Below, one piece after another: positions 110 through 5,399 of a stretch of 48,505 bases of DNA; the first letter of the stretch is position 1, and each line of letters starts with the position of its first letter. The translations under genes were made by a program, and so were the position numbers. The notes under the pieces are model-generated. The model was given only the letters and a program-made list of their open reading frames with translations, ran no database searches and was not told the origin of the DNA. The stretch is from Gemmatimonadota bacterium (GTDB taxonomy: Bacteria; Gemmatimonadota; Gemmatimonadetes; Palauibacterales; Palauibacteraceae). The DNA lies in the NCBI GenBank assembly GCA_021295785.1, contig JAGWBR010000025.1:1-48505 (forward strand), written 5' to 3'.

Positions 110-555
110 GGCTCGGTGTCCTCCATCCGTCAGATAATCTGTTCACCTTCACACTCCTCTCGCCCTTCACCGGACCTGAAGGGACAATCAGCCCCAACCC
201 ATGGTTAGCGTTAGATGTTCGCCAAGACTAATCCCGTTGCCCGGGAGCCGCACCGGAGGCACCTCAGAGCGCGCCGCGACCATCACGGTGCGGCGCACGG
301 CAACTTACTAGATCATAACCCTATACAATACATAGCGTTATGCTCACAATAGGTTTCTATCGATCACCCCTGCGATCACCCTTTGCGCGGCGGGTAGTGG
401 AATCCCACGGACTGCCCCCACCTCCCCGTTCGCCGTCCGGTCGTCCCGTGAGACCCTCTCTCATCCCATGCGGTCTCCCCGAAGGACTTCGGCTCGGCCT
501 GGGCGGGGACGCTGGAAGCCGCCTCCTCAAGCTATCATCATAGAGCGGAGACACC
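110..555. other. Intergenic stretch between the divergent propeller and HU genes
   Basis: No coding region is supported here. An A+T-rich island at about 303-350 stands out from G+C-rich flanks and contains TATACAAT at 322-329, which could be a -10 element, but no good -35 lies 17 bases upstream. Two copies of a GATCACCC motif lie at 361-381 and are described separately. Confidence 0.45.
361..387 (+). repeat. Short direct repeats of the GATCACCC motif
   Basis: CGATCACCCC is immediately followed by TGCGATCACCCTTTGCG. The same 11-mer TGCGATCACCC recurs at 4458-4468, flanked there by two copies of TGGTCACCCTTT next to the recombinase start. The motif is therefore clustered at two places about 4.1 kb apart. 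Arm-type recombinase sites or operators are possible readings; this is inference. Confidence 0.35.
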
Positions 556-885
556 TTGGCCACTGCGGGCGAAGAGAAGAGAATGACGAAAGCCGACCTC
601 GTTAACCGGGTAGCGGATGTGATCGGACCACGGGTCACCAAGAGGGATTGCGGGCTCGTGGTCGACGCCTTCCTCGACGCCGTCAAGGACACGCTGGCGC
701 ACGGCGACCACATCGAGATCCGGGGCTTCGGCACCTTCAAGGTGCGGCACCGCAAAGCCCGCACGGCGCGCAATCCCAGAACAGGCGAGCCGGTCGAGGT
801 TCCACCGCGTGTTGCGCCGGTCTTCAAACCGTCGAGTCACTTCCGCAGCCGGGTGGACCGGGGCTCTGGCGTGTCCGGGGCGTAG
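556..885 (+). CDS. HU/IHF-family DNA-bending protein
   Basis: A 109-residue protein of the HU/IHF family, which binds the DNA minor groove as a dimer and bends it. The usual start MTKADLV is at residue 10. The upstream TTG at 556 is preferred because GGAG sits five bases before it, whereas the ATG at 583 has only a purine-rich leader. The beta-core GFGTF is at residues 57-61. The DNA-intercalating arm RNPRTGEPVEVPP spans residues 72-84, with the proline where the family expects it. The C-terminal lysine/arginine helix FKPSSHFRSRV is complete. HU- and IHF-like proteins assist tyrosine recombinases, and one is encoded 2.4 kb downstream, but most genomes also carry chromosomal HU genes, so no specific partnership can be claimed. 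The gene is followed at once by a stem-loop-rich gap. Confidence 0.93.
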   Translation: MATAGEEKRMTKADLVNRVADVIGPRVTKRDCGLVVDAFLDAVKDTLAHGDHIEIRGFGTFKVRHRKARTARNPRTGEPVEVPPRVAPVFKPSSHFRSRVDRGSGVSGA

Positions 886-1416
886 GAGCCCTTGGAAGCC
901 GCCGCCGAGACGGCGTTGGGCGCTGGCTCGAAGCACCGTTAGGTGCTCAAGCCAGCCCACCCTTTGGGGCCACGCTTCGCGCGTCACCGGCAGGGGCTGC
1001 CGAGGGGCTCCGCCCCTTCGATCCCCACCCGTCCCGCGCTCCACCTGATTCTCCGCGCTGTAATGCCTGCCGCCCTCCTCGCCCTTCGAGTCGGTCGCGC
1101 ACTTTGTCCCACTCCCTCGCCAGCCGGTTGTCTTCCCTGCCAAAGGGGACTCCACCATTGCCCGTCTGCGATCCCGGTGTACGAGCGCCGTCCAAGGTGG
1201 CAGCCACGCCGAACCGTTCCGTGATACCTCTCTAGAGCGGTCCAACGGCGCAGCGAACGGCGGGTGGCGAGAGGGCGGTTCAGCGTCCGAGCTACCGCTT
1301 GTCGCCGGACGGCGGCGTCGCGCCCAAACTCCCTACGGTGCGGCTCCCATGCAACGGAATTGGTCCGGCGAACGTCCAATAACTGTTAAGGTGTACCTGG
1401 CTCTGGAGGTTGATTC
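886..1416. other. Gene-free stretch with stem-loops, upstream of the propeller lipoprotein
   Basis: No credible gene is seen on either strand. The 5' part holds a paired stem-loop element listed separately. Another simple inverted repeat, GGGGC-TCC-GCCCC, lies at about 1003-1015. The last 40 bases contain TAACTGTTAAGG at 1379-1390, a possible -10 region for the lipoprotein gene. The sequence after the stem-loops does not match the 3' halves of the long repeats at 2786 and 4592. Confidence 0.4.
901..958 (+). repeat. Two adjacent stem-loops resembling the core of the long structured repeat
   Basis: A short hairpin (CGCCG-AGA-CGGCG, about 904-916) is followed by a longer one. In the longer one CTGGCT (923-928) pairs with AGCCAG (950-955), and AGCACC (932-937) pairs with GGTGCT (942-947) around a GTTA loop. 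The same order, ending in AAGCCAGCCC, occurs in both long repeats beside the recombinase gene, but with different inner-stem bases. It may be a diverged third copy, or it may act as a terminator for the HU gene, although no T-tract follows. Confidence 0.4.
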
Positions 1417-2766
1417 ATGAGATTCCGATGCGCTGTGTTCAGTACGCTGCTGGCTGCCTGTGGCGGCGACACCGGAGGATCGTCCGGTCCACCGCCGAGC
1501 GAGGATCGTCCGCTCGCGGCCGATTTCGATGAGGTGTACCGGATCGGTGGAATCGAGGCCGAGGGGTGGGATGCGTTTACGGAGATCGCGGACATGGGCT
1601 TCGACGCGCGCGGTCATCTCTACATTCGGGACGAGGCCGGGTCCTCCACCCGGATCGTAGCCATCGATGGGGCCGGTGCCTTGGTGGCGGAGTTCGGGCG
1701 CATGGGCGATGGCCCAGGCGAGTTCCGGGGAGTCGGGCACATGGTGGCCCGGCCCGAGGGTGGGGCCGTGATTGTCGACGATGGACACCGCGCCTACCTC
1801 CTTTTCGGAGCCGACGGCTCGTTCGAGCGCGCGATCCGCTTTGCAGATCCGGGTTCCTCGCAGACGGCTCCCGCTCGGACGGTGCGCCACGGTCGGGAGG
1901 GAGCGGAGTTGTTCCTGGTGCGAGGTGCGACAGCGAGCTTCTCCCAAGGGGAAGCGTCCGTGAGCTCTGGGGACCGCACGCTTTACCGAGTATCGCTCGA
2001 GGAGGGGGAAGAGGCCGCTACGGTTCCGTTCGTGGAGGGTTGGGAACCACGCCCTGAGCGGCAGGTCACGACGGAGGCCGAGGATCTTTCGGACATGTTC
2101 GGTATGCTCCGAGACGCGTACGTCTACTTCTCGCCCAGCATGGTGTTCGATGTCGTCCCCGGCGGCGGAGTGGCGTATTCGGATTCCTCCGCGTATGAGA
2201 TCAAGATCCGGACCGCAAGTGCGCCGCCGCGCGTGGTGAGCCGACCGCTGCACCCCCAACCCGTTACGGAACAGCTTCGGGAACGCGCGCGGGTGCGGGC
2301 GCTGGAGGGCTTTGAGTCGTCCGCCGAGGAGCAGTACACCGTCTCGGGGCTTGGCGACGATGTTCCAGCGGCGGCCCGTGAGCAGATGGCAGTCATAATG
2401 GAACCCATGATGGCTGGCGTGCGTGACATGGTGGAGAACGCGAGTTTCATGCCCGAGGTGCCCCTTGTGCGGGATCTTCGCACGACCTGGGACGGCACTA
2501 TCTGGGTGGAACGCTGGGGGAGCGACCCTTTGCCGCAAATCAACGTCGCCTTCGGAGGATCGGATGACCGGAATCGGGAGGGCGAGGCTGCCGATGGATG
2601 GATTGATGTCCTGGCGGCGGGAGGCGAGTACGTGGGCACGTTCTCGCAGGAGGAAACGCCCATGCCCGGCGCATTTGGACCCGGTGGCCTCGTCGCTTTC
2701 GTCGAAACGGACGAATTCGACATCCCGACGATCATCGTGAAACGGCTGCCCGAGCCCGTCCGCTAG
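1417..2766 (+). CDS. 6-bladed beta-propeller lipoprotein
   Basis: A 449-residue protein with a short leader ending in a lipobox (LAAC, Cys15), so it is probably anchored in a membrane. After a Gly/Ser/Pro linker the propeller begins with EDRPLAADFDEVYRIGG. GDGPGEF at 97-103 is the hallmark of this secreted propeller group, whose members show repeated patterns of the kind 'D-x-x-G-x-L-Y' and 'F-x-x-D-G'. The fold is NHL-like. The true function is not known; roles in binding or sensing extracellular ligands have only been guessed for this group. The ATG is preceded by GGAGG at seven bases. No operon partner is visible: an unusual stem-loop stretch lies upstream and the long structured repeat downstream. 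Related genes lie at 1, 5421, 7328 and 21318. Confidence 0.8.
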   Translation: MRFRCAVFSTLLAACGGDTGGSSGPPPSEDRPLAADFDEVYRIGGIEAEGWDAFTEIADMGFDARGHLYIRDEAGSSTRIVAIDGAGALVAEFGRMGDGPGEFRGVGHMVARPEGGAVIVDDGHRAYLLFGADGSFERAIRFADPGSSQTAPARTVRHGREGAELFLVRGATASFSQGEASVSSGDRTLYRVSLEEGEEAATVPFVEGWEPRPERQVTTEAEDLSDMFGMLRDAYVYFSPSMVFDVVPGGGVAYSDSSAYEIKIRTASAPPRVVSRPLHPQPVTEQLRERARVRALEGFESSAEEQYTVSGLGDDVPAAAREQMAVIMEPMMAGVRDMVENASFMPEVPLVRDLRTTWDGTIWVERWGSDPLPQINVAFGGSDDRNREGEAADGWIDVLAAGGEYVGTFSQEETPMPGAFGPGGLVAFVETDEFDIPTIIVKRLPEPVR

Positions 2767-2785
2767 AACTACGCGGGGCTGGCGA

Positions 2786-3216
2786 TCAGCCAAGCGCGCT
2801 TTAGCGACGACCGGGTTCGCGGGCGGCACGCTCCCAACGCCCGCTGCTGCGCCAACGGCGCGGGAACGCTGGGGGATCAGAAGGGGGGCGCAGCATCCCC
2901 TCGCCAGCCGAAACGTTCAACGTTGCGTGGGCTGGCTTGGGACCAGTAACGGGTCCAAAGCCAGCCCTTCGGCCGCTCGCGTAGAGCCTCCCCGGGCACC
3001 GCCCGGAACCGCGACCATCCGACCGTCGCGGGCAAGCTCCCCGGCCTCGTGGTCGCCAGCCTCCCGCGCGACGAGGGCGACCGACTCCGTTCACTACTTG
3101 GCGACGGCGGCACTCTCTGCCGCGCGGCCGATTTCTGCCCTACCCTTACCCCTCGGGGACCGGAGATCGTCGATCTCGGGCGATCCTGTGGCCCGTAGTT
3201 TCCCCGAAATGCCCTT
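2786..3216 (+). repeat. Long structured repeat, copy 1 (downstream side of the recombinase)
   Basis: This block aligns with 4592-5030 in the same orientation, offset about 1,820 bases. Shared blocks include GGGGGGCGCAGCATCCCC (near 2883), GTGGGCTGGCTT (2927), CGCGGGCAAGCTCCCCGGCC (near 3028) and GGAGATCGTCGATCT (3162). Three stem-loops are visible: GCGCC-AAC-GGCGC (2849-2861), AACG-TTCAA-CGTT (2912-2924), and GGGCTGGCTT (2929-2938) pairing with AAGCCAGCCC (2958-2967) with an inner GGACC/GGTCC stem. In the other copy these stems have different bases that still pair. Open frames exist but shift between copies, so coding is unlikely. The identity of the element is unknown to me. Confidence 0.7.
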
Positions 3217-3227
3217 GGAACAGCCAG

Positions 3228-3250
3228 AAAACGGGCTCAGAGCCCGTTTC
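3228..3250 (-). terminator. Probable intrinsic terminator of the recombinase gene
   Basis: AAACGGGCT (3229-3237) and AGCCCGTTT (3241-3249) form a perfect 9-bp stem with a three-base loop. On the minus strand the stem runs into TTTTCT. It lies 28 bases past the recombinase stop. A second inverted repeat, CCGAGGG/CCCTCGG, at 3266-3288 spans the stop codon itself. Confidence 0.7.
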
Positions 3251-3277
3251 GGTATGTGGACGGGACCGAGGGTCGGA

Positions 3278-4444
3278 TCAGCCCTCGGTGTCTGCTCTCC
3301 GGCTCGCCAGATATTCCGCCCACTGCTCCATCAGAACGCGGCGGCGCTCGAACAGGTCCGAGCGGGCGTAGGCCGCCTCCACCTGGTTGCGGACGACATG
3401 CGCCAAGGCCGCCTCCATGACCGCGTGCGGCGCATCCGTCCGTTCCGCCGCCCAGTCGCGGAAGCTCGAACGGAACCCGTGCGGCACGGCCCCGATCCCC
3501 AACTCCCTGAACAGATCGCTGAAGCGCAAGGCTCGCAGCTGCAACCCCCTCGCGGACGGGAACACCAACTCCGACCGGGGTGCGTGCGCCTTCGCCTCGG
3601 CGAGAATCTCCCGCGCCCTGCCCGACAGCGGCACCCGGTGCCCACGCCGGCCTTTCATCCGCTCCGGAGGAATCGTCCACACCCCGCCCGCCGCGTCGAT
3701 CTCCCCCCAGCGAGCCCCGCGCACCTCACCGGACCGGCAGGCCGTGAGCGCGAGGAACTCCAGCCCCAGCTTCACGGATGCTCCGGCCCCGGACCGCCGG
3801 ATCGCCTCGATCGCGCCGGCCACCTCCTCGTAGGGTAGGGCCTTGAGGTGCTTCTGGACGTGGCCGGGCCTCGGCAGCGCCGCCCGGATCGCCTCGCCCG
3901 CCGGGTTGTCCACCCGGTAGCCTTGCGCGATCGCCCACTTCATCACCGTCCCGATCCGCTCTCGAACCCGCTTGGCCGTCGTGTGCTTCGCGCTCCAGAT
4001 CGGCATCAGCACGCCCATCACGTCGGCCGACGTGATCCGGTCCACCCGCTTCCCCCCGATCCTCGGATGCGCGTACATGCGAAGCGTCGACGCCCATTGG
4101 GCGGCGTGCTTGGCGCTCCACGAGGTACGATGCATGGCGAAGACCTTCGCCGCCGCCCGCTCGAACGTCGGCACCGAGCGGCGGCGTGTCGCCCTCGGGT
4201 CGCCGCCCGCTCTGGCCACTTTGCGGTTGGCCAGCGCGGCGTCCCGCGCCTCGGCCAGCGTCACGAGGCGGACGGGACCGAGTCCCAACTCCCTGCGCTT
4301 GCCGTGGATGAACAGCCGCTGGATCCACTGCTTGTAGCCGGACGGCTTGACGCGGAGCACGAGGCCGTGCTCGTCCCAGTAGAGTCCCGGCTCGTGGACG
4401 CTCCTCACGAAGGCGGCGGTGAGTTGTCTGCCGTGTTTGCCCAT
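3278..4444 (-). CDS. P4-type tyrosine recombinase (integrase)
   Basis: A 388-residue site-specific recombinase of the P4 integrase group, the kind that moves genomic islands. An N-terminal arm-binding (DUF4102-like) domain covers about residues 8-90, a SAM-like core-binding domain about 95-190 and the catalytic domain about 205-370. All active-site residues are present: Arg237 (CRSGEVRGARW), Lys264 (MKGRRGH), His322 and Arg325 (PHGFRSSFRDW), His349 and the nucleophile Tyr359 (AAYARSD). The protein looks full-length and intact. It lies between two direct copies of the long structured repeat, is followed by a good terminator, and has short repeats overlapping its own leader (4446-4483). No tRNA, which this group usually targets, is seen nearby, and no excisionase or cargo is obvious. 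The start has GGGTGACC upstream as a weak ribosome site. Confidence 0.93.
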   Translation of the reverse strand: MGKHGRQLTAAFVRSVHEPGLYWDEHGLVLRVKPSGYKQWIQRLFIHGKRRELGLGPVRLVTLAEARDAALANRKVARAGGDPRATRRRSVPTFERAAAKVFAMHRTSWSAKHAAQWASTLRMYAHPRIGGKRVDRITSADVMGVLMPIWSAKHTTAKRVRERIGTVMKWAIAQGYRVDNPAGEAIRAALPRPGHVQKHLKALPYEEVAGAIEAIRRSGAGASVKLGLEFLALTACRSGEVRGARWGEIDAAGGVWTIPPERMKGRRGHRVPLSGRAREILAEAKAHAPRSELVFPSARGLQLRALRFSDLFRELGIGAVPHGFRSSFRDWAAERTDAPHAVMEAALAHVVRNQVEAAYARSDLFERRRVLMEQWAEYLASRRADTEG

Positions 4445-4445
4445 C

Positions 4446-4483
4446 TGGTCACCCTTTTGCGATCACCCCATTGGTCACCCTTT
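4446..4483 (-). promoter_or_regulatory. Three short repeats over the recombinase leader
   Basis: TGGTCACCCTTT occurs at 4446-4457 and again at 4472-4483, with TGCGATCACCCC (4458-4469) between them. GGTCACC is nearly palindromic. The first copy sits where the ribosome-binding site of the recombinase would be. These could be arm-type recombinase sites or operators giving autoregulation; neither is shown. The motif recurs at 361-381. Confidence 0.4.
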
Positions 4484-4591
4484 CGGTGCTGGAACACACC
4501 GAACGTCCTGAAACGGCAATGTAACATAAATCGCTTGATAGCAACAGGTTCACCTACGTTATTGGATTTCCTGAAACCCTGCTGGATCATG
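4484..4591 (-). promoter_or_regulatory. A+T-rich upstream region of the recombinase gene
   Basis: Bases about 4517-4570 are markedly A+T-rich compared with the flanks and lie 75-125 bases upstream of the recombinase start. On the minus strand TTGCTA and TACATT are separated by 15 bases, a poor but possible sigma-70 pair. The island contrast fits acquired DNA. Confidence 0.35.
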
Positions 4592-5030
4592 CAATGGCGG
4601 AGCGGTGCTCAGGCACGGGCGCGCCGGAGCGGGGGGTGCCGGGGCGCGGTTTCCCAGCGCCCGCCCGCTTCTCCGGTAGCGGAGTGGGACGCTGGGTGTT
4701 CGAGGGGGGCGCAGCATCCCCTTCGCCAGCCGCGATGTTGAACATCGCGTGGGCTGGCTTGACCACCGTACAGTGGCTCAAGCCAGCCCCGGCGGAGCCG
4801 CTGAAACGCCTCTCCGGGCACCGCTCGGAACGACGGACTCCCGCTCGTCGCGGGCAAGCTCCCCGGCCTCTTGGCCGTCTGCCTCGAAAACGGCGACGGG
4901 CGGCCAGTCACTTTTGGGTGACGGCGCGCTCGCTGCCGCGCACCGCTTTTTCCCGCTACCCCGTACCCCTCGGAGACAGGAGATCGTCGATCTGGGGCGA
5001 TTCTGGAGCCCGTATCTACCCCGAAATGTG
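4592..5030 (+). repeat. Long structured repeat, copy 2 (upstream side of the recombinase)
   Basis: Direct copy of 2786-3216. The stem-loops are CTCCG-GTAG-CGGAG (4671-4684), CGCGATG-TTGAA-CATCGCG (4731-4749), and GGGCTGGCTTGA (4751-4762) pairing with TCAAGCCAGCCC (4778-4789) with an inner CCAC/GTGG. Against copy 1 the paired bases change on both sides of each stem. The 13-base palindrome AGATCG-T-CGATCT is at 4981-4993, identical in both copies. The block ends near CCCCGAAATG, where the IS3 transposase remnant begins. Confidence 0.7.
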
Positions 5031-5399
5031 CGTGGGCCGCCCCAGGGTCTCGAACGACAACCCGTACTCGGAGGCACACTTCAAGACCATCAAGTACCAC
5101 CCGGGCTTCCCAGGTCGCTTGGTACAACACCGAACACCGCCACGGCGGCATCGGCCTGCTCACCCCTGAGCAGGTCCACTTCGGCCGCGCCCCCAAGGTG
5201 ATCGAGAACAGACGGCAGGTGCTGGCCGCGGCCTACGTCGCCAGACCCGACAAGGCCGCCGAACTCCCGCACGAGGTCTGGATCAACCGCGCACTCCCCG
5301 TCACGTCGGCCGTTGGAGCAGAGCCGGCCAACGGGGGAAGGGAGGACTCGCTAGCACTAAACTGAATCGGAAAGCGTCTCAAAGTCGTTGGCAGGTTCC
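5031..5399 (+). pseudogene. IS3-family transposase (orfB) C-terminal remnant with the IS right end
   Basis: Frame 1 encodes RPRVSNDNPYSEAHFKT, the typical integrase-core segment holding the last catalytic Glu region of IS3 transposases, up to GFPGR at about 5117. The sequence then jumps to WYNTEHRHGGIGLLTPEQV in another frame from 5120, skipping the roughly 15-20 residues normally found between. The second frame runs to a TGA at 5363-5365 (ending SLALN). Beyond it the sequence up to GGCAGGTTCC at 5399 matches the flank of a second remnant at 22621, which marks the outer end of the element. The gene is truncated at its 5' end, internally deleted and frameshifted, so it is dead. Confidence 0.85.

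Follow-up and report, generated by a model that had tools for sequence, protein, structure and literature searches.

The closest described relatives of the sites reported here are the origins of transfer (oriTs) of MOBP5 (MOBHEN, ColE1-type) plasmids. A MOBP5 oriT predicted upstream of mobC in two plasmids reads GGGGGATTGAAGGGGGCC...GGCCCCCTCACAAGC (PMC3832669). In pMARC2/pAES4 (PMC3832669) and ColE1, the region upstream of mobC shows a GGGG-loop-CCCC hairpin, a CCAGCC-like box and a variable inverted repeat followed by a GGCTGGCTT-like box. Elements with their own tyrosine integrase, an oriT and no relaxase are described as iOriT elements (PMC11389934) and as Vibrio islands, e.g. MGIVflInd1 (PMC5704250); the latter measure 18-33 kb and have an oriT of the SXT type. 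Staphylococcal oriT mimics (PMC8136818) are non-conjugative elements with oriT subtypes fitting different helpers.

The window, i.e. the whole stretch of 48,505 nucleotides that was analysed, contains two alignable non-coding copies, A (2786-3216) and B (4592-5030). We estimate a probability of about 90% that both are oriTs of the ColE1/MOBP5 type and that A lies on a relaxase-less mobilizable island inside the mobC gene of an older element. Homology, gene neighbourhood, a structure with covariation and the site-specific insertion of a sister island were all observed. The original prediction knew of no named element that would match; the MOBP5 oriT does, as indicated by the position beside mobC, the matches of our site model R1 in plasmids and the published predicted motif. 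The copies have the hairpin, boxes and variable repeat listed above, and their first part is a string nearly identical to the oriT predicted in PMC3832669. Unlike the MOBP5 plasmid oriTs, the sites of the window family lie on chromosomal islands, mostly without a relaxase, and have a long palindrome formed with an extra box that follows the putative nic in inverted orientation, whereas the plasmid sites form a short hairpin at most (seven folded). The islands resemble iOriT elements and Vibrio islands in their tyrosine integrase, oriT and lack of a relaxase. They differ from the Vibrio islands in their size (~4.3 kb in the window and ~5.6 kb for the sister island L048), the ColE1-type oriT and the paired inverted oriTs. 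Compared to the staphylococcal mimics the relaxosome family is another one, and here two subtypes are inverted on one island. Table 1 gives the coordinates.

Table 1. Observed and predicted features of the window, in order of position.
Feature	Position	Strand	Basis
mobC start remnant of the presumed older (outer) element, reads RRTVMVAAR	269..296	-	translation, MobC starts in related loci
Presumed left attachment core of the inner island, GCGGCGC	290..296		analogy with the mapped ends of L048
HU-like DNA-binding protein gene	556..885	+	PF00216
Third probable oriT copy, inverted, subtype II, long inner hairpin	920..1028	-	R1 52.3 bits
Putative nic of the inverted copy	between 952 and 951	-	
Cargo: predicted lipoprotein-like gene (by eye) between the inverted oriTs	1417..2766	+	ORF, GC3 signal
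Copy A, probable oriT of the inner island, subtype I	2870..2967	+	R1 87.4 bits (copy A is among R1's own training sequences), inverted repeats, covariation
Putative nic of copy A, palindrome across	between 2935 and 2936		
R, conserved segment after the oriT palindrome	2972..3063	+	nhmmer
T, conserved segment ~65 bp from the integrase gene 3' end	3132..3211	+	nhmmer
P4-type tyrosine integrase of the inner island	3278..4444	-	PF13356, PF22022, PF00589; PRK09692 below cut-off
Presumed right attachment core of the inner island, GCGGTGC	4602..4608		homology to the L048 island stops just before, at 4586
Leader from mobC start to oriT, presumed outer element	4609..4691	+	copy B matches related loci to their mobC starts
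Copy B, probable oriT of the outer element, subtype I	4692..4789	+	R1 90.1 bits (copy B is among R1's own training sequences)
Putative nic of copy B	between 4757 and 4758		
R segment, presumed outer element	4793..4885	+	nhmmer
T segment, presumed outer element; no integrase after	4950..5028	+	nhmmer, tblastn

In the segment from oriT to T, copies A and B agree in 237 of 323 gap-free columns and differ by indels of 1, 1, 5, 1, 1 and 2 nt. Stem 1 is formed by GCGCC (2849-2853) and GGCGC (2857-2861) in copy A and by CTCCG (4671-4675) and CGGAG (4680-4684) in copy B. For stem 2 we observed AACG-TTCAA-CGTT in A versus GATG-TTGAA-CATC in B, and the inner arms of stem 3 are GGACC/GGTCC in A versus CCAC/GTGG in B. 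These stems had been predicted with the same letters and are all present in the sequence. The third copy, on the minus strand, is more divergent. Each of the six frames contains stops in at least one of the 13 copies compared, which agrees with the earlier claim of two non-coding copies whose frames are not kept. The frames and indels also argue against a decayed protein gene as the source of the copies.

The profile for collecting further sites was derived from a pattern in which the outer arms of stem 3 are fixed and the inner stems free, and hence the outer-arm pairing of stem 3 is partly built in. From 44 near-complete copies we removed six for their length and two as near-duplicates, five partial copies also being excluded, and obtained an alignment of 36 rows. 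The covariation test covered the modelled segment; stem 1 lies upstream of it. In the alignment of these 36 sites, 87.2% of the cells are paired under the named structure, compared to 40-48% when it is slid. Changes on both sides of a pair were found in 115 cells, versus 47.3 (sd 5.4) in shuffles, with 0 of 500 shuffles reaching 115, and 8-41 cells when slid. Selection on RNA or single-stranded DNA structure, as originally proposed, is supported by this excess of compensatory changes over shuffles in the 36 sites. Counted by pairs, however, a both-side change occurs in ten, which is not above the shuffles (10.7; 489 of 500 reach 10). RNAalifold, run on the 36 homologs with no structure supplied, predicted the GGGG/CCCC stem and stem 2, with both-side changes preserving 5 of 17 pairs. 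It did not predict stem 3 from these homologs and paired the left arm with an upstream GCCAGC instead.

In ten of ten genus loci with a readable mobC start and upstream sequence, the site lies at the mobC start and is directed away from mobC. Nine of them have a relaxase gene, whole, cut or broken (L061/L173, L063, L069, L159, L161, L162, L163, L167 and L170), and in the tenth, L055, mobC alone is in view. The site matches in L161, L162, L163 and L170 are weak (nhmmer 15.6-17.8 bits; R1 E-values 0.0003-0.004). The tally leaves out L158 and L165, which are cut inside mobC, and the relaxase pieces without mobC (L164, L166, L168, L171 and L172). Also uncounted are L169, where the upstream sequence is present without a site and mobC lacks its first 79 residues, and L160, with no site match in the ~90 bases upstream of mobC. 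Remnants of mobC adjoin the site in L049 and L062 too, and the window copies themselves have a mobC remnant only. The MobC proteins beside the site match NikA-like/MobC. The relaxase beside it is of the MobA/VirD2 type and matches PF03432; the scores against NCBIfam MbeA (111, 86 and 92 bits) are well under the cut-off of 500. It gave 24 matches in 9 of the 17 genus genomes. No relaxase of this MbeA-like genus family was found in the window's own genome, which is 85% complete, and there is none among the predicted genes of the window island.

Relatives of the genus relaxases were found in 3487 plasmid records, none of them matched over 80% of the query, and among the 15 matches listed at most half of the query is covered. 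We examined eight of these 15 plasmids and ColE1; the sequence upstream of mobC is readable in eight of the nine (L222 is unreadable). R1, a model of 97 positions made from the genus, also recognizes mobC-adjacent sites in Proteobacterial plasmids: the matches have E < 0.001 in five of the eight (L190 36.2 bits, L224 35.1, L223 34.5, L188 32.6 and L225 23.0), are weak in two and absent in one, the E-values of R1 being rough. The site in L189 gave a weak match beside mobC (17.4 bits, E 0.03), that in ColE1 was marginal (12.6 bits, E 0.08) at 341 bases from mobC, and in L191 R1 gave no match in the readable mobC upstream region. Off-target matches of R1 were encountered at L172:129-213 (E 1.5e-4) and L223:366-436 (E 0.007). 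We take the nic of ColE1 to lie between CTGG and CTTA; among the matches listed, the literature on these letters was unrelated by title.

The ends of the island could be studied in a relative. The stretch 3129-4586 of the window, from T through the integrase to just before copy B, is 81% like the L048 island. Both ends of the latter could be mapped from five genomes in which its flanks adjoin each other (empty sites). They are ~5.6 kb apart, outside the HU and integrase genes and away from the stem-loops, and an 8-9 bp core flanks the island at both ends (GCTTCCCAG/GATTCCCAG). The interrupted gene is, by eye, TonB receptor-like. The islands L048 and L050, from two species, are 99.1% identical over 5.37 kb and their right-hand flanks differ; other stretches of the two genomes, those compared being mobile-element regions, are 76.9-94.6% alike. 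In L050 the right-hand flank is the end of a second integrase gene and the left end is off the contig. This island apparently sits at the 3' end of that other integrase gene, at Asp-Trp-Glu codons (L050:2825-3970), and by eye another one is apparently inserted in a katG-like gene (L177:5800-6200).

In the window the positions corresponding to the ends of L048 are ~290 and ~4602, and the start of mobC is split there, with RRTVMVAAR on one side and VPEHR on the other; L055 reads MAEHRTVMVAAR. The attachment cores would be those given in Table 1, by analogy with L048. They form a short, imperfect repeat, and we found no empty site for the window island. Judged by its sequence, ~290-4602 appears to be an integrative mobilizable element without a relaxase and with its own P4-type integrase, probably inserted in the mobC gene of an older element whose oriT would be copy B. 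In this reading copy B, along with its R and T, would be part of the older element. The original prediction had placed the copies on both sides of a recombinase gene. This gene is the integrase, which together with the copies belongs to an integrative mobilizable element, and the flanking pair most likely arose because the inner element is nested in the outer one. A transposase-like remnant was noticed by eye after copy B (5035-5360), the expected place of the outer element's integrase.

It is highly improbable that the tyrosine recombinase uses the stem-loops as attP or attC-like sites (for attachment or for cassettes) and recombines them as folded single strands. A palindrome with inverted boxes does adjoin the integrase, and there are chimeric copies with one half only in common: the HU gene and its flank are similar in five genomes (G000, G020, G026, G027 and G028), with a common flank from the HU gene to the far palindrome arm and differing arms thereafter. 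However, the ends of L048 mapped by the five empty sites lie outside the stem-loops, and the site adjoins mobC in relaxase operons and on plasmids. A crossover in the folded site, as for attC, was not observed in this sister island, whose ends are elsewhere. Stem 3 as a recombinase core, considered in view of the chimeric copies and the HU flank, was abandoned after the empty-site mapping in L048, and an integron was rejected as the integrase is P4-type.

A structured non-coding RNA or a transcription terminator or attenuator would be in line with the covariation, with a location between or after genes and with copy B, which folds clearly better than its shuffles (z -5.67). In contrast, the folding of copy A hardly exceeds that of its shuffles (z -1.55, with 10 of 100 shuffles equally good), the window gave 0 Rfam matches at the gathering score, and position and homology are those of an oriT, so that we consider such an RNA very unlikely; the element may have a side role in ending transcription. 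The number of R1 matches at E <= 0.001, 64 in 13 of the 17 genus genomes (without the divergent sites of L161, L162, L163 and L170, and with one being the other strand of a counted palindrome), could also suggest a short repeat of the MITE or REP-like kind that does not move autonomously and owes its spread to a transposase or the recombinase. Such a repeat is exceedingly improbable given that the copies adjoin mobC and occupy a recurrent position within larger islands, and that in 15 of the 18 named contigs with strong matches the integrase 3' end is followed by a site on the minus strand, i.e. in one orientation downstream of the integrase.

If copies A and B are MOBP5-type oriTs, as we prefer to read them, the hairpin region would be the binding site of a MobC (NikA-like) protein. 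The nick, made by an MbeA-like relaxase in one of the strands just after stem 2, would presumably fall between GGCTGG and CTT of the box. The nicked strand of the island could then enter a recipient cell by way of a mating channel that a helper provides. The inner island would move into and out of the chromosome by its own P4-type integrase, with the mobC gene of the older element as its probable insertion target. Islands without transfer genes of their own might thus still pass between cells with help.

Other noticeable characteristics concern the arrangement of the sites. The two-site loci of the genus, ten of ten, have a minus-strand site first and a plus-strand site second. These are the inverted copy of the window with A, L046, L048, L050, L051, L053, L177, L065, L083 and L175, where L048 and L050 are the same island and a partial extra match in L176 is excluded; copies A and B of the window, plus-plus and read as nesting, are outside this tally. 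A predicted gene lies between the sites in nine of nine annotated two-site loci; the cargo gene of the window has no Pfam match at 0.001. R1 matches with E <= 0.01 were found on 19 of 78 named integrase contigs. At E < 1e-7 eight of the named integrase contigs have two or three sites, with a minus-plus pair on seven (L227, L230, L231, L233, L238, L241 and L265, of which L231 is the contig of L050) and not on L228. We grouped the sites into subtypes I and II for the present analysis. The inverted copy is 85% identical to the subtype II sites of relaxase operons and 67% to subtype I, whereas copy A is 84% identical to subtype I sites and 67% to subtype II. The reading with two subtypes comes from one island, that of the window, since both members of the eight other genus pairs tested are nearer to subtype I.

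Stem 3 repeats the box GGCTGGCTT, inverted, beyond the putative nic. In 31 of the 36 rows this palindrome forms five or six of its six outer pairs; it is missing in L053:8686, L080, L062, L063 and L069. Of the ten sites adjacent to mobC, three (L055, L167 and L173) have the palindrome and seven do not, four of the latter retaining an inner hairpin only. We can only guess that the palindrome eases melting at the nic or forms a hairpin in the leading strand. The oriT copies L046:46-114 and L083:8613-8677 break at GTGTGCTG, exactly where the nic is presumed, and share another sequence after the break; they look as if they had recombined there.

In the 26 other genomes of the same order R1 gave no match under strict filters, by which weak matches are lost. 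Outside the order, six contigs binned as Gammaproteobacteria (L228, L229, L230, L232, L234 and L265) have R1 matches and integrases that are 81-89% identical. An Acidobacteria contig (L287) has an R1 match of 68.6 bits and an integrase with 68% identity, and the Terriglobia contig L263 (OX638355.1) a match of 65.4 bits and an integrase with 54% identity; the bins may be contaminated. The Terriglobia record is a chromosome-level assembly. The oriT-like site and related integrase of L263 suggest spread between phyla. A core-pattern scan of viral contigs found nothing. VirB4 (PF03135) was not found in the 17 genus genomes, with the control search positive in 1 of 14 known genomes; the mating channel would therefore have to come from elsewhere.

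What is unusual about these islands is the combination of paired inverted oriTs (of two subtypes in the window), a long palindrome over the putative nic and no VirB4 in the 17 genomes. Palauibacter, probably the genus of the window, is sponge-associated. Tentatively, and with the odds somewhat against it, the islands could form a minimal relaxase-less class in uncultured, probably sponge-associated hosts, with two inverted oriTs around cargo, in some islands of different relaxase subtypes, and an inverted nic box that creates a palindrome across the nicking site; they would be usable by either of two helper relaxases and move between phyla. Titles and abstract beginnings on oriT in Gemmatimonadota and Palauibacter revealed no paper on the present system. 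At the same level, none appeared among the matches listed for relaxase-less integrative mobilizable elements, for mimics, for MOBP5 with integrative elements, or for two inverted oriTs with an integrase or relaxase. The oriT family is known from plasmids and the novelty of the present system rests on this title- and abstract-level comparison. An anonymous structured repeat of an uncultured lineage has become a testable transfer origin, and one oriT family appears common to relaxase-bearing and relaxase-less islands. Hitch-hiking islands are easily missed because they have no conjugation genes, and R1 provides a model for finding them; gene flow between bacteria of different phyla is hinted at.

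Two further observations concern the segments R and T. T (~80 bases) is conserved beside integrases that are 46-81% like that of the window and also occurs after a relaxase gene and other ORFs; it was seen in L068, L070, L076, L078, L079, L081 and L082, in the last of these after the relaxase gene. Between R and T we noticed by eye GIY-YIG-like, NUDIX-like and lipoprotein-like cargo in L048, L054, L057 and L071.
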